This document shows positions 6,323 through 15,163 of a DNA stretch of 35,922 nucleotides, one piece after another. This DNA is from a virus: the IMG/VR virus record IMGVR_UViG_3300008267_000370, positions 1 to 35,922 of that record; one strand, given 5' to 3'. Each line of letters opens with the position of its first letter. Positions within the stretch are counted from its first letter, which is position 1. Below the pieces are notes generated by a model that had not been told where the DNA came from, ran no database searches, and was given only the letters and a program-made list of their open reading frames with translations. Both the position numbers and the translations under genes were made by a program.

Positions 6323-7362
6323 ATTGCCTCTACTTCTTGTATGCGTTGTCCGATCCACGCCATCACAGGCACTGCCATGCTGTTGCCCAAGGCTTTGTAC
6401 CTTGGACCGTCTGGCGTTGGCTTGCCCTTTGGCTTGATGTCGGTGTAGCTGTCGGGGAAGCCTTGGAGTCTCTCGCATTCCTTTGGCGTGAGTCGGCGCA
6501 CGGCCATTGCTTGTTGAATTACTACTGCTTCATTTCCTTGTGTAGGACAATGGCATTGTTGTGTAAGAGCGCCAACGCCATGATCTTCGCGAACCTTACG
6601 GCCAGGAGACATTAAGTTCATTGACCATGCCACCGACATCGGATTCTTGGCTTGCAGGGTTTGCGTCATGTCCACATCTGTTTGCGGGTTTGACATCTGA
6701 CCGCTGAATGCAATGGGTTGCGCCACATTCGTACCAATGCCAGCCTTAGTTAGCGTGCTTGTTACATCTGTCTCGTTGACATACAAACCGCCATCTGGAC
6801 GATCTGCTCGAGTCCCATTGGCATCGCAGAATGTGATGTTGTAGGCAATGGGTTGCAATGTCACTGGCACATTACCGCCGCCTGTGCCATAAGTTGCAGA
6901 CACGGTAGTGCAAACATCTCCAAGGTCACGCACAAGCGCCTCGTGTAAGGCACTTGGCAGGGTCTTCCCTCTTTTCTCTGCTCGGCGCAGGATGCCCTGA
7001 CAGGCTGTGGCGCTCAAAAAGTACCGCTGCGGCAAGTCGCCAGTCTCCAAGGTATCCGACAACGAACACACGGCGGCGGCGCTGTGCCACTCCAAAGTAT
7101 TGAGCGTCAAGAACGCGGTATGCGAACCCATACCCGAGTTCCCCCAACCCTCCGAGGAATGTGCCAAAGTCTTGTCCGGCGTTAGATGACAGAACGCCAG
7201 GGACGTTCTCCCAGACCAGCCAGTTGGGGCGATATCGTTTAGCAATGGCAAGATAGGTAAGCATGAGGTTGCCACGCGGGTCATCCAATCCTTTTCTGAG
7301 TCCTGCGACTGAGAATGATTGGCAGGGAGTTCCTCCGACAAGAAGATCGACATTTGATTCAA
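6304..7362 (-). CDS. Methyltransferase C-terminal half fused to an alternative-frame phage ORF
   Basis: 352 aa. The C-terminus carries the conserved late motifs of phage cytosine-C5 methyltransferases: RRLTPKECERLQGFP (residues 289-303, motif IX region) and RYKALGNSMAVPV (321-333, motif X). Residues 1-146 are not methyltransferase sequence. They are the +1-frame reading of the catalytic half (6926-7387), yet they resemble a common phage hypothetical family with the signatures GRTS.A, NSGM, LTLNT.EW, CSLSD.LETGD and GILRRAEKRGK. I recognise that family from memory, not from a search. The catalytic and target-recognition halves are therefore in different frames. Either a +1 frameshift joins them, or the gene is decaying. 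Confidence 0.7.
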   Translation of the reverse strand: MNQMSIFLSEELPANHSQSQDSEKDWMTRVATSCLPILPLLNDIAPTGWSGRTSLAFCHLTPDKTLAHSSEGWGNSGMGSHTAFLTLNTLEWHSAAAVCSLSDTLETGDLPQRYFLSATACQGILRRAEKRGKTLPSALHEALVRDLGDVCTTVSATYGTGGGNVPVTLQPIAYNITFCDANGTRADRPDGGLYVNETDVTSTLTKAGIGTNVAQPIAFSGQMSNPQTDVDMTQTLQAKNPMSVAWSMNLMSPGRKVREDHGVGALTQQCHCPTQGNEAVVIQQAMAVRRLTPKECERLQGFPDSYTDIKPKGKPTPDGPRYKALGNSMAVPVMAWIGQRIQEVEAICKQNK

Positions 7363-7387
7363 TTGACCACTCCTTAAATTTCGTCAT
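6926..7387 (-). CDS. DNA cytosine-C5 methyltransferase, catalytic half (motifs IV-VIII)
   Basis: 153 aa. It has GGTPCQSFS with catalytic C22 (motif IV), WENVPG at residues 59-64 (motif VI) and AQRRRRVFVVG at 101-111 (motif VIII). It stops at 6926 without motifs IX-X, which continue in the +1 frame (6304-7362). The SAM-binding motif I lies upstream in yet another frame (7384-7443), and the intervening motif II-III region is missing. Related full-length phage Dcm proteins are roughly 350-450 aa in one frame. As written, no complete enzyme can be made without two frame changes, and the deletion makes activity doubtful. The usual role is protection of phage DNA from host restriction. Confidence 0.75.
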   Translation of the reverse strand: MTKFKEWSIESNVDLLVGGTPCQSFSVAGLRKGLDDPRGNLMLTYLAIAKRYRPNWLVWENVPGVLSSNAGQDFGTFLGGLGELGYGFAYRVLDAQYFGVAQRRRRVFVVGYLGDWRLAAAVLFERHSLSGHPAPSREKREDPAKCLTRGACA

Positions 7388-8127: not shown

Positions 8128-9246
8128 TTATTGACTTAGGCTGCGATCTTTTGCAAGCGTCAGTCCACTTGATACCTTGACGCATAACTCGTCCAAGATA
8201 ACTCTTTGTTCCTTTGGCAGTAGCTTTTCCGCTGCCGCAGGAGTAATTAGGGTTGTTTCAAATATGTCGGTGTCAGCCAAACCTATTGATGTCAGTTTTT
8301 CTCTGGCCTTGTCACCATCAATCCATTTGCGCGTAGGGCGCTTTGGCGCGAGTTGCCAACCGGCCAGCACCATACCGTCCTTCTCCATGGCGTTTAATGC
8401 GTGCTCTCTGACCGCGTCAATGAATTTTTCCACTTGTGGCGCTTTGTCCAGAATGGCGCTGATCTGGTCTGCTGTGAGCGCCAGCATGACCTGCTTGATG
8501 TCTTCTTTGTCCATGACGGTGATGTCAGTGTTGGCGGCCACGACATCGAATTGCTTTTGCTGTGCCGGACAAATTGTCTTTGCGTCACACCACTGACAGG
8601 CTGAGTCAGAGATATAAAGTGGCGGCTCATCGAGTTGGGTTGCGATCATTGCAGGCCGCAACACTTTGACCTCCCACTCTGCGAGTTCGGCCATAGTCAT
8701 GATGTGTGTGCGAGGCTCACCGGCGTGCGGCTGCACAATCGTCATATGGATTTCTTTAATCCAATCGCGGCTCATGCCTTGTATGTAAGCCAGCGCATAT
8801 ATCTTGAGTTGGGTGTTGTCCTCCTCCACATATCCCTTGCCGGTCTTCAAGTCTGTGACGTAGACAATGCCTGACTTCATCGATAAGCCAACCAGATCGG
8901 CAGTGCCGCCAACCTGTATGAATTCTTGACTTTGGTACATGACTTGGCGCTCAACACTTACATGATCGGTGACATTCTCAACGTGCCAAATCTCCTGCAA
9001 GTAGTCCACCGCCATCTGACAATCATCAGCCGTTAGTGTCACGCCCTCCATCTTCTCGCCAACAAACTTCATGGGATCGGTGTCTAACTGATAGCAAGTC
9101 TCGGCCAAAGCATGAATGGCAGTGCCACGCTGTGCGGCCTCACCTGATGGCCGGTAAGGTACTTGAGCGCAGAGCTTGACCGAGCCAGGACAGGCGATCC
9201 AGCGCGATGCGGATGACGGTCTAAGCCTTAGTTGTTTGGTTGCCAT
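8128..9246 (-). CDS. DUF2800 / Cas4-like PD-(D/E)XK nuclease
   Basis: 372 aa. It opens with RLRPSSASRWIACPGS and has RGTAIHALAE (residues 40-49), GGTADLVGL (D117), a DLKTGKG nuclease motif (D132, K134) and Q146-LKIYA: the full PD-(D/E)XK set of the RecB/Cas4 group. Cysteines C19, C217, C220 and C226 reproduce the split four-cysteine iron-sulfur ligand pattern of Cas4 and AddB. DUF2800 proteins are common in phages; a role in end-processing during recombination or in host DNA degradation is plausible. The start overlaps the upstream gene by 19 bases and has an AGAAAGAG site. Confidence 0.87.
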   Translation of the reverse strand: MATKQLRLRPSSASRWIACPGSVKLCAQVPYRPSGEAAQRGTAIHALAETCYQLDTDPMKFVGEKMEGVTLTADDCQMAVDYLQEIWHVENVTDHVSVERQVMYQSQEFIQVGGTADLVGLSMKSGIVYVTDLKTGKGYVEEDNTQLKIYALAYIQGMSRDWIKEIHMTIVQPHAGEPRTHIMTMAELAEWEVKVLRPAMIATQLDEPPLYISDSACQWCDAKTICPAQQKQFDVVAANTDITVMDKEDIKQVMLALTADQISAILDKAPQVEKFIDAVREHALNAMEKDGMVLAGWQLAPKRPTRKWIDGDKAREKLTSIGLADTDIFETTLITPAAAEKLLPKEQRVILDELCVKVSSGLTLAKDRSLSQ

Positions 9247-9452
9247 GAGTCTCTTTCTAAATGGTGATCATTGATGATCAGTTGATAAGCCAGTTGACGT
9301 ATCTCATGCGATGCCGCATGACCGAGGTCTTCGGGATCGAGCAAGCGTTTGAGTAATACGATCTTGTCTTGGTTTGCTTTGCGTTGCTGCTCTACTTGTG
9401 TGCCAAGCCAGATGATGTGCTGACGCAAAACTTCACGTTCTTTATCCTGCAT
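9228..9452 (-). CDS. Small helical hypothetical protein, 74 aa
   Basis: Starts MQDKEREVLRQH. It is highly charged and helical throughout, with a coiled-coil-like stretch in residues 1-36. It overlaps the upstream RuvC-like gene by 11 bases and the downstream nuclease start by 19, so it is embedded in the recombination operon. No family recognised. A helper of the neighbouring nuclease or resolvase is possible from position alone. Confidence 0.75.
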   Translation of the reverse strand: MQDKEREVLRQHIIWLGTQVEQQRKANQDKIVLLKRLLDPEDLGHAASHEIRQLAYQLIINDHHLERDSWQPNN

Positions 9453-9921
9453 GGCGTGATCCCCAATGCGCGATCAGCGCAGCGTCAGCGCGGCCATCAT
9501 CCTTCACGCGCTTGAATTGATCTTGATCTGATGGGAAGAGTTCCATGGCGCGCGCGCGGCTGGCATCCTTTCCCTGACCGCGGCCAACGCCCTTCACCCA
9601 AATGGCTGGCGGCACGAATGTCACCGGCATCTTGAACGCGGCCAGAATGCCCTCAATCATGCCAAAGCTGCGGCCAAAGCTGAAGACGCTAGTTACGCCT
9701 TGGCCTGCCATTGCGCTCACGCGCTCGCAGTAGACATGGCAGTCTCTGCCGGAGTATAGGTACAGCATCTCTGCCAACTCGGCGGCGCTGACCTGCCGCT
9801 TGGCTTTGCCGTTGCGCTCTACCGTCATGGTGGGCATATCGAATATCTTGAAGCTCTCAGTCGAAATGATGGCGATTGCGCCAGAGAGGCCAGGATCAAT
9901 GCCAATGCTGTATTTACTCAT
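9442..9921 (-). CDS. RuvC-like Holliday junction resolvase
   Basis: 159 aa, matching bacterial RuvC length. The RNase H-fold motif GIDPGLSGA provides D9. VYCERVSAMAGQGVTSVFSFGRSFG provides E66 and the RuvC-like helix. The C-terminal KDDGRADAALIAHW provides the last acidic pair (D141/D142 and D146). Such phage enzymes trim branched replication intermediates before packaging by terminase. The ATG overlaps the stop of the upstream regulator by 4 bases. Confidence 0.9.
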   Translation of the reverse strand: MSKYSIGIDPGLSGAIAIISTESFKIFDMPTMTVERNGKAKRQVSAAELAEMLYLYSGRDCHVYCERVSAMAGQGVTSVFSFGRSFGMIEGILAAFKMPVTFVPPAIWVKGVGRGQGKDASRARAMELFPSDQDQFKRVKDDGRADAALIAHWGSRHAG

Positions 9922-10172
9922 TTGACGGCCTCTTCCATGGCCTTGTTGAGTATGGTCATGCGTGCTGACACCAGCGCATTGGCGGCCTCATCCAAGCGCA
10001 GGACGGTGCTGTAGAGTGGCTCTGTGATGCCGTTCTGCCATCTGCTGACCTGAGCTTGGTTGATTTCAGCGACTCGGCAGAGATCGGACATCTTGAATCC
10101 GGCAGACTCAACCTTGTTTTTTATATCGTGAATTGCTTGCTGTGCGATTTTCATGTCTAGAATGTTAACCAT
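9918..10172 (-). CDS. Cro/XRE-type transcriptional regulator
   Basis: 84 aa. The HTH occupies residues 28-50: MSDLCRVAEINQAQVSRWQNG, with the AxxNxxQVSxWxxG pattern of XRE proteins. It is the first gene of the leftward block and faces the rightward promoter. The likely -10 (10181-10176) lies so close to the ATG at 10172 that the message may be leaderless, or translation may begin at the second Met codon (10154). It is the obvious candidate to bind the inverted repeat at 10290-10315 and act as the early switch. It is shorter than CI and has no dimerisation/cleavage domain, so Cro-like behaviour is more likely. Confidence 0.85.
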   Translation of the reverse strand: MVNILDMKIAQQAIHDIKNKVESAGFKMSDLCRVAEINQAQVSRWQNGITEPLYSTVLRLDEAANALVSARMTILNKAMEEAVK

Positions 10173-10175
10173 ATT

Positions 10176-10203
10176 TTGATAGAAGTGTTAAGTGTACAGA
10201 CAA
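10176..10203 (-). promoter_or_regulatory. Possible leftward early promoter
   Basis: On the minus strand TTGTCT (10203-10198), a 16-base spacer and TATCAA (10181-10176) sit directly before the regulator gene. The predicted start site falls at about 10170, at the ATG itself. The spacer contains ACTTAACACTT, similar to half of the operator repeat on the other side of the gap. Confidence 0.4.
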
Positions 10204-10229
10204 AAAAGGGGATCAGCGAACCGATCCCC
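10202..10229 (-). terminator. Minus-strand terminator in the divergent control region
   Basis: GGGGATC (10208-10214) pairs with GATCCCC (10223-10229) around an 8-base loop. On the minus strand the stem is followed by six T residues (10207-10202). No minus-strand gene lies immediately upstream, so it would stop transcripts arriving from the late block through the rightward operon before they reach the regulator. A second hairpin, CTGCTGG/CCAGCAG (10239-10245/10255-10261), stands beside it without a clear T tract. Confidence 0.75.
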
Positions 10230-10289
10230 AAAAGGCAACTGCTGGAAGCATGAACCAGCAGGGACATTGTAATTGATGGAATACTTGAC

Positions 10290-10332
10290 TAACTTGTAGG
10301 TGATTTGACAAGTTAAGCAAGTGTGATATTAT
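10290..10332 (+). promoter_or_regulatory. Rightward promoter with operator palindrome
   Basis: TTGACA (10305-10310), 16 bases, then TATTAT (10327-10332) make a strong sigma70-like promoter. A perfect 8-bp inverted repeat, TAACTTGT (10290-10297) and ACAAGTTA (10308-10315), with a 10-base centre overlaps the -35 element. A bound repressor would therefore block RNA polymerase. It drives the rightward operon beginning at 10368, whose ribosome-binding site is TAAGGA (10355-10360). Confidence 0.75.
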
Positions 10333-10367
10333 CAATTCCTCAATAACACAACTCTAAGGAAAACGAA

Positions 10368-10748
10368 ATGAACGCAACTTACGAAGCATATGTAGCCTCT
10401 GACCTGTATCAAGCTGGCATCGCTTGTGACGGTCACCCTTTCATCGCTGAGAAATATTATGTTTTGATTGAGAACGCAGCTGGTCGCCGCTTTCGTCACG
10501 AAAAATCTTTTGCCGGTGCAGAAGTTGTAAAGTGCGAAGAAACTGGCGAAACAGGATTTGCAGATATTCGTGAGACTGCCAAGACAATCGTTGAAGATTT
10601 AGCCGCCAAAGTTAATGCAGCCTTGGCATCAGGTAAAGCCTTGACAGCATCATGCTGGTTTGAAGTCGATCCAGCTTACGGCTCTGACGCTTACATCGAT
10701 CAAGGTACAGAGTCAAAGCGCTTTTTTGAAGAGAGAGCCGCAGCTTAA
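10368..10748 (+). CDS. Hypothetical early protein, 126 aa
   Basis: First gene of the rightward operon, with a strong promoter and a TAAGGA site eight bases before the ATG. It is acidic and soluble, with a repeated aromatic pattern (YEAYVASDLYQAG, EKYYVLIENAAGRRFRHEKSF) suggesting an alpha/beta fold. I recognise no motif. Its placement directly behind the switch promoter, together with good translation signals, predicts high early expression. That is typical of host-takeover or anti-defence proteins, but function is not shown by sequence. Confidence 0.85.
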   Translation: MNATYEAYVASDLYQAGIACDGHPFIAEKYYVLIENAAGRRFRHEKSFAGAEVVKCEETGETGFADIRETAKTIVEDLAAKVNAALASGKALTASCWFEVDPAYGSDAYIDQGTESKRFFEERAAA

Positions 10749-10759
10749 TTAACCCAAGG

Positions 10760-10773
10760 GGGGCGCAAGCCCC
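10760..10773 (+). terminator. Short GC hairpin with GCAA tetraloop between genes
   Basis: GGGGC-GCAA-GCCCC (10760-10773) is a stable GNRA-type hairpin in the 43-base gap between the first and second rightward genes. It is followed by ATCTTTA and then the AAGGAG site. The T tract is poor, so it is more likely a partial attenuator or an mRNA-stabilising 3' end for the first gene than a full terminator. Confidence 0.45.
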
Positions 10774-10791
10774 ATCTTTAAGGAGTCCCTC

Positions 10792-10932
10792 ATGAACCAC
10801 ACACAACACGCCATGACTGATGCCAACCACCGCAGGCTTGGCAAACGCGCAGAGGCTGCCTATGACTACTTGCTGTGCCTTGTCATCGGCACTGGCTTGG
10901 CCGCACTGCTTGTCGCATGGTGGTCATCATGA
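10792..10932 (+). CDS. Small single-span membrane protein, 46 aa
   Basis: ATG 10792 is preceded by an excellent AAGGAG site. The protein has a basic, His-rich N-terminus (about 22 residues) and one hydrophobic segment (residues 26-43: YLLCLVIGTGLAALLVAW), consistent with an N-in, C-out inner-membrane peptide. Its TGA overlaps the next ATG (ATGA). Function unknown; small early membrane peptides of phages often affect host envelope or superinfection. Confidence 0.65.
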   Translation: MNHTQHAMTDANHRRLGKRAEAAYDYLLCLVIGTGLAALLVAWWSS

Positions 10933-11216
10933 ACAACCAATCACCATTTTCAACAAAAAAATATCAAGGCATTGACCCCGCATTTCCAGTTTTTCCAGAG
11001 ACAGGCGGCGGTCATGCGGCGGCATTTCAAGGCATGAGTCTGCGGGACTACATGGCGGCAAAAGCTATGCAAGGTATGTTGGCCGCAAAAGGATGGCATC
11101 CTGATTTTATGTTCCCAACAGATTTCAATTTTGATGCTGGACAGCGTGCCGCAGATGCAGTAGCTGTTGCGTCTTACCAGTATGCAGACGCAATGCTGAA
11201 AGCGAGAGAGCAATGA
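10929..11216 (+). CDS. Conserved small phage protein, 95 aa
   Basis: I place the start at ATG 10929 (MNNQSPFSTKKYQ), overlapping the preceding stop. The reading frame is open further upstream but would run through the membrane-peptide gene. The layout PAFPV...GMSLRDYMAAKAMQG...ASYQYADAMLKAREQ is a pattern I know from many small phage hypotheticals, with an LRDYxAAKAxQGxL core and a YxxADAMLxxRE tail. Function is unknown in all cases I know. Confidence 0.85.
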   Translation: MNNQSPFSTKKYQGIDPAFPVFPETGGGHAAAFQGMSLRDYMAAKAMQGMLAAKGWHPDFMFPTDFNFDAGQRAADAVAVASYQYADAMLKAREQ

Positions 11217-11464
11217 CCGAGTTGCAAGACTACTGCCAAGAACCTCGGACCATGGATGAATTGGTGGAGGCCGGATACAAGCAGCACGCGGTCTACAACG
11301 CCGTCAAGCGCAACGAATTGAAGAACACCAATGCCGTAGACGCATGGGGGCGCAAACAGCGCGGCAAAGGCTTATTCCTGTCCACCGTGACACCGATCCC
11401 CTACAACGCAACCCTGTTAGTGCAAGCCTGGAACACACAACCACAAGGAGAAAACCATGTCTGA
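11213..11464 (+). CDS. Putative winged-helix-like small protein, 83 aa
   Basis: The ATG overlaps the upstream stop by four bases. Residues 13-38 (TMDELVEAGYKQHAVYNAVKRNELKN) resemble a compact helix-turn-helix used by phage proteins that toggle a recognition helix (DELxxAGxxxxxVYNxVKRxxLxN). The C-terminal half has short predicted strands (KGLFLST). It may be a small DNA-binding regulator; confidence in the HTH is moderate. Confidence 0.75.
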   Translation: MTELQDYCQEPRTMDELVEAGYKQHAVYNAVKRNELKNTNAVDAWGRKQRGKGLFLSTVTPIPYNATLLVQAWNTQPQGENHV

Positions 11465-11726
11465 GAATATGCAAATTGAGATTGACCGAGCTGTCAATAA
11501 GTTCACGCCACCCATGGAAGTGGGCGGTGGATTCCTCTCACGCGAGGACATCAAAACCTTTGCACGCAAGGCTGTGACTGATGGCACGTTTATCGGTTGG
11601 GCGCACGCTGAGAACATGACCCGCGAGCGTATGCAGCGTAAGGTCACCGAGCTTGAGCATGAAGTCACCATACTGCGCGAGCGCGTCAAGGAAGTTGAGA
11701 TGGAACTACTGGCAAGCCAGAAGTGA
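11457..11726 (+). CDS. Coiled-coil hypothetical protein, 89 aa
   Basis: The start at 11457 is preceded by AAGGAG and overlaps the upstream gene by 8 bases. The N-terminal part contains FLSREDIKTFARKAVTDGTFIGWAHAENMTRERMQ. Residues 60-88 form a regular heptad coiled coil (VTELEHEVTILRERVKEVEMEL), suggesting dimerisation. No family identified. Confidence 0.8.
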   Translation: MSENMQIEIDRAVNKFTPPMEVGGGFLSREDIKTFARKAVTDGTFIGWAHAENMTRERMQRKVTELEHEVTILRERVKEVEMELLASQK

Positions 11727-11878
11727 AAATAATAATACTGGTGTTGGCTGTGCTGGCACTGTTTTACTTTGATTCAGAGGAGTCACATGGAAACCGTAAT
11801 CAATTTTCTTTTGATGGCACTGTTAGGCATGGCAATCACGCTGGTGGTGCTGATTTGCATTGTGAAATTTTTAATTGA
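11723..11878 (+). CDS. Possible GTG-start membrane peptide, 51 aa, overlapping the next gene
   Basis: The GTG at 11723 overlaps the preceding TGA (GTGA). The N-terminus KIIILVLAVLALFYF is a single hydrophobic helix. The second half (after residue 20) is encoded by the same DNA as the 36-aa gene below, in another frame. The ribosome-binding site is weak. The coupling and the hydrophobic start argue for expression; the lack of any recognised family argues against. Confidence 0.35.
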   Translation: MKIIILVLAVLALFYFDSEESHGNRNQFSFDGTVRHGNHAGGADLHCEIFN

Positions 11879-11897
11879 TGCAACTGAGGACAAGTAA
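11787..11897 (+). CDS. Small membrane peptide, 36 aa
   Basis: ATG 11787 with GAGGAG eight bases upstream; the stop TAA is followed directly by the ATG of the next gene. Residues 5-29 are almost entirely hydrophobic (INFLLMALLGMAITLVVLICIV), followed by a charged tail DATEDK. This predicts one transmembrane helix. It is embedded partly inside the preceding GTG ORF. Function unknown. Confidence 0.6.
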   Translation: METVINFLLMALLGMAITLVVLICIVKFLIDATEDK

Positions 11898-12257
11898 ATG
11901 CCTAGACCTAAGAGTGAATTGACCACCACGCAAAAACAAATTGGCGTAAGGCTTACGCAGTGGCAGTATGAGGAATGGAAGAGGCTTGGCGCGTCAAAGT
12001 GGATCAAGCAATTGCTGACAGAGAGTCGCAAAAATTTAAATGAAATCCGCTCAGGTAATGTGCTTGTGGCGGTGTACAGGTATGGGATTGGCACTGATGC
12101 CGTTAAACCGCCACCACTGACACCTATGGAGAGACTGCGCCGATTCAGAGCGCGTGAGACATTGGACGATAAGGCTTTCCGCTTGGCGCGTGAAAGAGGT
12201 AAGAGGTTAAAGCCACGGCGTGATCCGCTGGTGGCTGCACTGTTTGGAGAGAGATGA
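11898..12257 (+). CDS. Putative ribbon-helix-helix-like DNA-binding protein, 119 aa
   Basis: Begins MPRPKSELTTTQKQIGVRLTQWQYEEWKRLG. This fits a short beta strand (IGVRLT) followed by helices, as in Arc/CopG-type ribbon-helix-helix proteins, with a KWIKQLL segment. I have seen similar MPRPKSELT openings in short proteins of betaproteobacterial phages. The C-terminal half is very basic (RRFRARETLDD, RGKRLKPRRD), which favours nucleic-acid binding. Start and stop abut both neighbours. Confidence 0.75.
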   Translation: MPRPKSELTTTQKQIGVRLTQWQYEEWKRLGASKWIKQLLTESRKNLNEIRSGNVLVAVYRYGIGTDAVKPPPLTPMERLRRFRARETLDDKAFRLARERGKRLKPRRDPLVAALFGER

Positions 12258-12466
12258 TGGATAAATATGATGAAGCAATTGAGTTTTTGAAAAGCGTAGA
12301 GCCAGGCAGTTATTTTGACGAATGCGCTGAGTTGATAGAAGAGCTTGTTGCCCAAATTGAGCAGGCAAAGCCAAACAAATTTAGCCCATCAAAGGAGTCA
12401 ACTGCACGCCTCAAGCAAATGCAAGGGGCGGCAATTTATTACGCAAAGTCTCGCGGCCTGCGTTGA
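12254..12466 (+). CDS. Hypothetical protein, 70 aa; last gene of the rightward operon
   Basis: Two tandem ATG codons (12254 and 12257) overlap the upstream stop. The N-terminal half is acidic and helical (YDEAIEFLKSV, ECAELIEELVAQIEQ); the C-terminal half is basic. The stop directly abuts the stop of the convergent late gene at 12467, leaving no room for a bidirectional terminator. Opposing transcripts must therefore collide or overlap here. No family recognised. Confidence 0.75.
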   Translation: MMDKYDEAIEFLKSVEPGSYFDECAELIEELVAQIEQAKPNKFSPSKESTARLKQMQGAAIYYAKSRGLR

Positions 12467-15163
12467 CTATCGTTGATCGCCAGCCATTGAGCTTGCACTG
12501 TACCCAAGTGCAGCAAGCGCCGCGGCTGGTGTCATACCACCGCGAATTAACTCCACAGCTTTCGGCCAATCTGCCTCGCTAAAGAATCGGCGCGTCTCTT
12601 GGATATCACCTCGAGCACCGCCCATCTTTGAATCCCGCAGAGCTTTTGCTCTAATGGCTGAACGCACAGCTTCTGACTCGCTAAGATTTTGAGCTACGCT
12701 TGGTTGCAGGTTAGAGAATGCGCTTAATAGATCGCTTGTTGCCTCACCGCTATATGGCTCTGTAGACAACAGACCATTTTCGCTGCGCTTGCCAACGCCA
12801 GGCACATAACCTGTACTGGCAATTGCGCTTTGCCTCTCTGCGCCTGGGAATGCTTTCTCTAAATCACGGCCAGCGTTTTTCATTATCTGGCTGAGGCCAC
12901 CAGAGCTTGAGCTTGGGTTGTACGGGAAAAGCAACATACCTCGGTTGGTGGCTGTGACACCGTAACCAGCAGCCGCATCATCCAAACCCTCAAGCTTCTT
13001 AAACACCGACTTGGTTGGAGGACCGTATGGAATTTTTTCGCGTAGGGCCTTGGCTTCTTTTTCAGATTTTTTACTGGCCTTACCTAAAATAGTGTTGACT
13101 CGGTTGAGCTGCTCTGAAGATGGAAGCAATCCTGCACTTGGGTCTGCAAGTCGATCAGCAACCATTCCTCTAGTGTCAAGAACCATAGAGTTTTTACCTT
13201 TAACACTAGCCATAGTGTTTGGTAAGTTATATGCGCCAGCTTCCTGAGCATCCATCAATGCACGAAATTGTTCAGCGGCATCCATTACCTTGCTTGATTC
13301 TTCGGCCATCCTACCTCCACCGCCACCAGTCGGAAAGTCCATCAATGGGCGTGCAATTGTCATTGGGTTTGTTTCTACTTGACCTAACTTATTGATATAT
13401 AAACCACTTGCTTCACGCGATGGTAATTGGCGATATCCAAGTGCGCTATAAATTGCATCTCTGTTACCTGCACCAACTTGAGGGAATTCATTCAATGCAG
13501 CCTCCGGCACTAGCATATCAAAACGCCCTTGTTGGCTGTATGCTAATTTTTCTGCTGGAGACAAGTTGAGTGCTTGCGGCACATGACCAAGTGATGCGCC
13601 TGGTATGGCTTCATGCGTAGCAGATGCAGCGTGTTTGTAGAAGTAATCTCTGGCGGTGTTATTAGCATCTTGAATTGATGCCTTAATTCCTTCTAACTGA
13701 TCACCAGCATAACGTCCGCGCATACCTCTACTGTATAAATCTTGTGCTTTACCGTAAACCCATGGCACTTCTTGAATTTGTGGACCGCCCCAATTAGTTC
13801 TTCCACCAACCGAGGCTTTGTTTGCTCTATCTACTTGAAGTGCTGTTTCAGCATCCATGAATGGGTGCATTGTCTCTGATACTCCAGCCTTCCAAGGGTT
13901 ACCCTGCGGGTCTGTATAACCCATGCCTTGAGCGCGTCTGAAATCATTTACGCCAAACAGTCCTGCATTAGGTATGCGCGGGTCATTCTTATTGGCATAT
14001 TCACCAATTTTGAATCCCATATTTGCTGGCCGTCCCTCGGCCACAGCAGTGTCCAAATTTCTCATTGGAGCGCCGCGGTATGCCATCTCAGGTATGCCAG
14101 CCACTCGACTATTCAAATGCTTTAATGCAAATCCAGATTCTGATTCTGGGCTAACACCAGCGGAATAAACGCCATGCTGCTCAAGTGTTCTATTAAGTTG
14201 ATAGGGTTCTGAACTTTCAGCAATGCCTTGTTTGGCTCGGTCATACCATGTACCAAGTCGAGCCTCATCAGCTAGTCGCACAGCTTCAACAGCATCATTA
14301 AAATCAGCATCCATAGATCGGCGCATTGCACCCAATCCTTGTCCGCTTGTTACTGTGCGAGGAGCGCCAACATAGCCGCCTGCTGTCTGTTTTAAGTGCT
14401 GTCCCTCTCTTGCATTCTTTAAGACGGCCTCATCTCCAGATGTCTCGGCCATCTTTCGATAGTAGTCTGCTTCTACTTTTTGTCGCTTACCTTTTGATTT
14501 AAATGTGGAGGCGGCTTGAGCTTCTGGACTCATTGACGCACTCTCTAGTGCCATCTTTTCAACCTTCTTAGCCCTTGCTTTTTCCTGTACTTGCTTCTGT
14601 CCGAATTTATCTATGACGGCCTGCTCTTCTGGTGTTCTAACTATTGGCGGTTCTTCTAGCAAACCTTTTGCCGGCAGTTTTTTGCCTGGTGGAATTGCAA
14701 ATATTGCTGATGCTGGTTCAGCCAGCAAGCTAGGAAGACTTGGCCTACCCATCACAACATTTTCAGCCATGCGCTCGCCAACCATACGCAAACCTGCTTT
14801 GCCGCCCCTCGCCAAAGGTACAACAGCCGCCGCAGGCACTGGTGACATGAATGCACCAATGTCTTCAAGCAATCCAGCTTGTGGCGTTGGCGCTGTCATG
14901 CGTGGCGTGCGTTGTTTTAATTCCTCGCTGCTCGGTAAAAAATATGGGACTTGAGGTATTCCACTTTGTGACGCTAGAAAATCCATATTTCTTTGCATCT
15001 TTTCACTAACCAGCATTTTTCGCAAATCTTCTGGAAGACCAAGCAAACCAGCAACAGAGCCGCGCCCAAGAGACTCCAAATTGCTCAGAGAGAACAAACT
15101 CGGCATACCTTCTGCCGAATAGTCTGGTGCGCCAAATGGGTCTTGGTAGTAATTGGTTGCCAT
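12467..15163 (-). CDS. Very large internal virion / ejection-type protein, 898 aa
   Basis: Largest gene in the genome and last of the late block. No transmembrane anchor or enzyme motif stands out. The N-terminal 150 residues are Pro/Ala/Gly-rich with LPEDLRKMLVSEKMQRNMDFLASQSG. Residues about 185-230 are Lys-rich and helical. The middle part contains a conserved-looking block (ALGYRQLPSREASGLYINKLGQVETNP). It follows three other Ala/Gly-rich virion-type proteins, as do the internal core proteins of podoviruses. It is probably ejected with the DNA; a polyvalent-protein role is possible. Assignment rests on size, order and composition, not on a known domain. Confidence 0.6.
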   Translation of the reverse strand: MATNYYQDPFGAPDYSAEGMPSLFSLSNLESLGRGSVAGLLGLPEDLRKMLVSEKMQRNMDFLASQSGIPQVPYFLPSSEELKQRTPRMTAPTPQAGLLEDIGAFMSPVPAAAVVPLARGGKAGLRMVGERMAENVVMGRPSLPSLLAEPASAIFAIPPGKKLPAKGLLEEPPIVRTPEEQAVIDKFGQKQVQEKARAKKVEKMALESASMSPEAQAASTFKSKGKRQKVEADYYRKMAETSGDEAVLKNAREGQHLKQTAGGYVGAPRTVTSGQGLGAMRRSMDADFNDAVEAVRLADEARLGTWYDRAKQGIAESSEPYQLNRTLEQHGVYSAGVSPESESGFALKHLNSRVAGIPEMAYRGAPMRNLDTAVAEGRPANMGFKIGEYANKNDPRIPNAGLFGVNDFRRAQGMGYTDPQGNPWKAGVSETMHPFMDAETALQVDRANKASVGGRTNWGGPQIQEVPWVYGKAQDLYSRGMRGRYAGDQLEGIKASIQDANNTARDYFYKHAASATHEAIPGASLGHVPQALNLSPAEKLAYSQQGRFDMLVPEAALNEFPQVGAGNRDAIYSALGYRQLPSREASGLYINKLGQVETNPMTIARPLMDFPTGGGGGRMAEESSKVMDAAEQFRALMDAQEAGAYNLPNTMASVKGKNSMVLDTRGMVADRLADPSAGLLPSSEQLNRVNTILGKASKKSEKEAKALREKIPYGPPTKSVFKKLEGLDDAAAGYGVTATNRGMLLFPYNPSSSSGGLSQIMKNAGRDLEKAFPGAERQSAIASTGYVPGVGKRSENGLLSTEPYSGEATSDLLSAFSNLQPSVAQNLSESEAVRSAIRAKALRDSKMGGARGDIQETRRFFSEADWPKAVELIRGGMTPAAALAALGYSASSMAGDQR

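Follow-up and report, generated by a model that had tools for sequence, protein, structure and literature searches.

The gap between a small leftward regulator gene and a short rightward gene group in the freshwater phage studied here is quite probably a three-promoter switch, in which an XRE-type repressor would act at two operators, O1 and O3, and a small RNA would be made from a middle promoter, the whole serving lytic timing. The terminator lying in this gap is most likely, judging from relatives, the 3′ end of a conserved minus-strand small RNA with its own promoter. A first-pass annotation had placed promoters on both sides, a palindrome, a minus-strand terminator and related half-sites in this stretch, and all of these elements were found where it described them.

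The sequence analysed, referred to as the window, is IMG/VR record IMGVR_UViG_3300008267_000370, one virus record taken whole (35,922 bases), and it is probably a complete genome because it carries a direct terminal repeat of 114 bp. Terminase, portal, head, lysis and replication genes were recognised in it, and the larger genes all point leftward with the exception of the short rightward group at 10368-12466. The closest annotated terminase belongs to an unclassified spring-water phage (67% identity), and no DNA-level match to 9000-12000 was found among annotated phages. The regulator of MW202879, the nearest annotated phage, is only distantly related (39% identity across residues 12-67), and no similar terminator-linker block was seen upstream of it when that stretch was inspected by eye. 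The C5 cytosine methylase domain encoded at 6926-7387 has just 153 aa and covers profile positions 52-168 of 324; it is likely a fragment or a frame-broken gene. The annotation's description of a phage without integrase was borne out in that the Pfam families Phage_integrase and Resolvase matched none of 21 whole records, the window's included. A search of bacterial genomes (84,980 species) with the regulator returned 63 stretches, with no relative and no prophage among them; this absence of prophages rests on the regulator search, and other carrier states are still compatible with it. A strictly lytic way of life seems likely for this phage, and the switch would accordingly serve to time its early genes rather than to maintain lysogeny.

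Relatives were gathered by IMG/VR searches with the regulator and the 126-aa protein encoded by the first rightward gene, and the regulator start in each was set from the protein alignment only. The 272 loci with at least 200 bases upstream reduced to 155 distinct regions, and to 152 after removal of L042, L043 and L059, which have another regulator type and are without the small RNA. Since the regions share descent, counts among them are not independent trials, and fixed spacing and covariation weigh more than raw counts. Comparison of these sequences brings out the operators, the -10 elements, the fixed spacings and the RNA structure, whose positions are collected in Table 1.

Table 1. Positions of the features in and around the control region, in window coordinates.
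Feature	Positions	Strand	Remarks
Regulator gene, 78 aa from probable ATG 10154	9918-10154	-	listed ORF is 84 aa and begins at 10172
Leftward promoter pL (predicted)	10162-10191	-	-35 TTAACA 10191-10186; -10 TAACAT 10167-10162; expected start 10155 or 10154
Candidate operator O3, TTGAT-AGAAGT-GTTAA	10176-10191		over pL; fixed offset of 21 from ATG
Predicted small RNA, about 59 nt	10202-10260	-	5′ end predicted at about 10259-10261; 3′ end in T run
Terminator	10202-10229	-	hairpin 10229-10208, 9 pairs; T run 10207-10202, six T; predicted 3′ end of small RNA
Conserved CAGUUGCCUU	10232-10241	-	last three hairpin-arm bases and unpaired linker; from relatives
5′ hairpin of small RNA	10239-10261	-	7 pairs; compensatory changes in relatives
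-10 of small-RNA promoter, TACAAT	10266-10271	-	same place in relatives
Conserved block, -40 to -20 of small-RNA promoter; O2 candidate	10279-10300	-	half-site TTGAC 10285-10289
Palindrome of first-pass annotation, TAACTTGT/ACAAGTTA	10290-10315		arms 10290-10297 and 10308-10315; present, not beyond chance
Rightward promoter pR (motif match)	10305-10332	+	-35 TTGACA 10305-10310; extended -10 10327-10332
Candidate operator O1, TTGAC-AAGTTA-AGCAA	10305-10320		over pR -35 and spacer; matrix score 15.0
First rightward gene, 126 aa	10368-10748	+	no family; exchanged among relatives

The two outer promoters stand back to back as first described. The rightward one, pR, reads TTGACA-16-TATTAT preceded by TG, with 11 of 12 consensus matches, and the leftward one, pL, reads TTAACA-18-TAACAT, with 9 of 12; rule-based calls recovered a rightward promoter in 147 of the 152 regions, a few of the picks being wrong (L290 and L218, for example). 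On the leftward side a -10 hexamer ends exactly 7 nt before the regulator ATG in 152 of the 155 distinct regions (TAACAT in 138, TAGAAT in 10, TACAAT in 4), and no Shine-Dalgarno-like sequence precedes that ATG in any of the 152. The fixed -10 distance, together with the stop codon that replaces the upstream ATG at 10172 in L060, L063 and L068, suggests that the regulator probably starts at 10154 and not at 10172. With an ATG so close behind its -10 and no Shine-Dalgarno-like sequence, the regulator mRNA is likely leaderless or begins with one extra base, in agreement with the leaderless message first proposed.

The regulator is predicted to be an XRE-type helix-turn-helix protein. Its AlphaFold2 model (pLDDT 92) has four helices and a long C-terminal helix at residues 48-77, and the best fold matches were XRE repressors and antitoxins (DdrO, P22 c2 and HipB), which share the predicted fold; all of these had E above 0.09, none reaching E below 0.001, and the long C-terminal helix sets the regulator apart from them. 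Pfam HTH_3 matched with E 4.5e-4 and 20.7 bits, below the curated cut-off of 23, a PDB sequence search gave no solved-structure match, and a weak PHROG match named a 'CII-like regulator' (E 8.3e-4). The label "Cro-like" thus holds only broadly, for a helix-turn-helix protein of the XRE type as indicated by the fold and the weak HTH_3 match.

The first-pass annotation took a palindrome, one arm of which overlaps the pR -35, as the operator. The window contains 10 perfect 8-bp inverted repeats with a spacer of 3-14 nt where shuffles lead one to expect 9.9, so the palindrome itself is not beyond chance, and its half-site TAACTTGT, with at most one mismatch, occurs 23 times in the genome against 22.15 expected, without enrichment. 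The 26-bp palindrome was rejected as an operator, for it joins the right half of the block at 10285-10300 to the left half of O1, and in relatives in which pR is shifted by about one helical turn its two parts separate. What exceeds chance is a 16-bp operator derived from the relatives, TTGAC-N6-GTCAA, and a conserved RNA block.

Of this operator two candidate copies flank the region, one in each outer promoter, which agrees with the compact divergent switch and the related half-sites in the opposite promoter first described. O3 is the best operator match within 60 bases of the regulator ATG, and its offset is identical in every one of the 152 regions, among which there are 31 distinct O3 sequences; at least 8 of 10 positions match in 133 regions, against 3.5% of shuffles. 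The score of O1 is the best in the intergenic region and was reached by 5 of 2000 shuffles. With a symmetric matrix trained on O3 only, 151 of the 152 regions, compared with 4.1% of shuffles, have a pR-side site that scores at least as high as the window's O3; in O1 only the second half is informative because the first half-site is the -35 itself. That second half, in the spacer, agrees on average with 4.19 of the 5 letters of GTCAA over all regions, against 0.38-1.66 at eight neighbouring offsets, and is exactly GTCAA in 33 of 71 distinct O1 sequences; two symmetrically placed changes in O1 distinguish L053 from L054. A fourth operator-like site over the pR -10, 23 bp downstream of O1, is strong in many relatives and weak in the window (10328-10343, score 5.2). 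Across the genome, operator-like sites scoring at least 12 number 10 against 1.5 in shuffles, but other arrangements of the half-sites are equally common at several spacings, so that on this moderate enrichment a wider regulon is at most a possibility. Two intragenic operator-like 16-mers, at 2675 and 22090, score above O1.

Between the outer promoters runs the predicted small RNA, in the order of a 5′ hairpin, a single-stranded linker and the terminator. A -10 for it stands at the same place in 146 of the 152 regions (null 3.9%), as TACAAT in 102, TAGAAT in 17, TAAAAT in 14 and TAAACT in 13, and a half-site [GC][TA]C[AG][AG] lies 12 or 13 bp upstream of that -10 in 146 of 152. The six exceptions are L099 and L245, with TACAAT and a changed half-site, L191-L193, with TAAAAT in another setting, and L100, without the -10. 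In 119 of 123 distinct RNAs the 5′ hairpin has its first paired base 4-7 nt past the -10, and the 5′ part is stabler than shuffles (z < -1) in 98% of the RNAs. Among the RNAs of the window type, 19 distinct ones only, 99.0% of pair cells are paired and 6 of 16 pairs have changed on both sides; the covariation is 0.321 against 0.165 in shuffles, none of 500 of which reached it, and at most 0.120 when the pairing was slid. Pairs changed on both sides were also found in two other structural types, analysed through 10 and 12 chosen representatives of 116 distinct RNAs. In further relatives this place is taken by one or two hairpins of quite another kind, and the terminator stems differ too; the linker CAGUUGCC between hairpin and terminator is nearly invariant while the hairpins are exchanged.

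These observations bear on the insulating role that had been given to a terminator facing no gene. The terminator itself is real. Were it solely an insulator, it would stop leftward late antisense transcripts before the regulator gene, with the upstream hairpin and -10 functionless; the late genes do point toward it, a search of the junction between the leftward late operon and the rightward genes (12000-13000) revealed no terminator, and L100 retains the terminator without the rest. This account is improbable, as it leaves unexplained the conserved -10 at a fixed distance from a conserved block, the covarying hairpin just past that -10, and the persistence of the linker through exchanges of the two hairpins. 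Since the 12000-13000 stretch yielded no terminator, an insulating side effect is possible; in the first place the terminator would be where a structured minus-strand RNA, transcribed from a -10 of its own, has its conserved 3′ end. In L100 hairpin, linker and -10 are all absent, so the small RNA would be dispensable there unless an assembly error is involved.

Highly improbable is a scheme of attenuation, in which the minus-strand promoter would drive the regulator operon and a leader of hairpin and terminator would decide read-through. The layout would allow it, for promoter, terminator and regulator gene follow one another on the same strand, the terminator in between. Against it, a separate -10 serves the regulator at exactly 7 nt from the ATG, and the terminator is unbroken, with no competing antiterminator in the ten folds inspected; that private -10 and the lack of Shine-Dalgarno-like sequences in all 152 regions suggest, moreover, that a read-through mRNA would be poorly translated.

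A separate, small RNA is thus the reading favoured here, and a predicted promoter of its own, a terminator and a conserved structure were all found for it. In a regulator-independent pattern scan of viral sequences, among the matches listed 117 of 119 were readable: 86 lie beside the regulator, 10 were too short and 21 were other, with L407 showing the same arrangement. Among the matches listed that had enough downstream sequence, 86 of 107 adjoin the regulator, and L407 makes 87; the regulator-small RNA arrangement was found in none of 23 bacterial pattern matches. Rfam gave no family match for the window, its best hit being 16.6 bits against a gathering threshold of 43.9 (chrB-a, on the other strand), and none at the loci of 9 relatives. 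No earlier description was found in literature searches and Rfam, the only sources searched, and the small RNA is most likely a previously undescribed RNA family. Elsewhere, a hairpin, GCAGTTGCC and a terminator follow one another in three viral contigs without the regulator (L334, L401 and L430), an arrangement that may be a distant version of the small RNA. In three other phages (L342, L368 and L390) AGTTGCC stands directly before a terminator, behind a gene whose DIPF tail we take to be SSB-like.

The small-RNA promoter has no -35 consensus (0-3 of 6 matches to TTGACA) and no extended -10, and carries instead a conserved block of 21 bp from -40 to -20. The operator half-site TTGAC in this block is so situated that it and a partner would lie on either side of the -35 position. 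Promoters activated by CII of phage lambda have half-sites flanking the -35, as the direct repeat TTGC-N6-TTGC; the geometry here is similar, while repeat and protein fold differ. On this basis the regulator, bound at the conserved block, may activate the small-RNA promoter as CII does, a reading that we hold tentatively. The half-site kept 12 or 13 bp from the -10, the want of a -35 consensus and of an extended -10, the 21-bp block and, as a weak pointer, the CII-like PHROG match argue for it. The 16-mer at 10285-10300 scores below 5 with the operator matrix, its right half being unlike the operator, and the data would agree equally well with action of a host factor or with a promoter that is simply weak and constitutive. 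Because the partner half-site misfits the operator, activation by the regulator is a possibility rather than a result.

Taken together, a model is proposed of a control region with three promoters, pL, pR and a middle minus-strand promoter for the small RNA. A leaderless pL mRNA would give the 78-aa XRE-type protein, which would bind TTGAC-N6-GTCAA operators; at O3 the protein would shut its own promoter, and at O1 it would cover the -35 and spacer of pR and shut the rightward cargo genes. The middle promoter, which lacks a -35 but has a good -10, would give a short RNA ending before the regulator gene, with its UUGCC linker single-stranded between the two hairpins, and this RNA would most likely act in trans via the linker. 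Protein binding, transcription, repression and trans action are what we infer from comparison of the sequences, and the linker is taken as the working part since it is kept while the flanking hairpins are exchanged. Among the predicted start regions of 606 genes in 11 phage genomes no linker target stood out; a target in the host is possible, and GGCAACUG is proposed as the query for host start regions. Pairing of the linker with the pR leader was considered and dropped, for AACGCAAC occurs in many leaders but many others are without it; in the window, AAGGCAACT/AACGCAACT forms a direct repeat.

Lambdoid immunity regions are built of cI and cro, OR operators and a leaderless cI mRNA from pRM. 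Shared with them are divergent promoters, several candidate operators of one small helix-turn-helix protein encoded at the locus, present in both promoters and in one case over the -35 and spacer, and a probably leaderless regulator mRNA. The present switch differs in having one regulator, no integrase and no second repressor found, and neither its operator nor its protein can be aligned to theirs at the sequence level; instead of two opposing regulators of the CI and Cro type, one helix-turn-helix protein only was found beside it. With OOP RNA of phage lambda (77 nt; PMC12197685) the present RNA shares its shortness, a promoter and a terminator of its own, predicted here, and a place inside the control region on the strand opposite to the rightward operon. 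OOP is antisense to cII. Unlike OOP, the RNA here lies between the promoters, its conserved part is an unpaired linker and no recognised gene runs antisense to it: it falls upstream of pR within the gap 10155-10367, where no listed gene of at least 50 aa lies opposite, and OOP-like complementarity to a neighbouring mRNA was not found. Short regulator RNAs encoded by phages also include P22 sar RNA (68/69 nt) and others covered in the same review, but those cited here from it belong to temperate phages and have named mRNA targets (PMC12197685).

The gene directly behind pR is exchanged among the relatives, with 33 families of first gene in 139 regions, so that 10368-12466 is, by this comparison, a cargo site behind a constant switch. 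The window's 126-aa protein had no match in Pfam, PHROGs or PADLOC, and a scan of seven predicted proteins, six of them rightward and the seventh the regulator, gave no match to known defence families. A fuller picture, which we regard as speculative, is that one leaderless XRE protein represses the outer promoters and activates the middle one, that the linker tunes host or phage mRNAs, and that the whole is a constant cassette before exchangeable cargo, giving timing without lysogeny. If the three-promoter switch is true, a large group of uncultured phages would carry a new RNA family, and a lambda-like plan of divergent promoters, leaderless repressor mRNA and small RNA would be used without lysogeny. 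The linker kept while the hairpins are exchanged shows which part to mutate, and a constant switch before 33 first-gene families would mark a place for new early anti-host or anti-defence genes.
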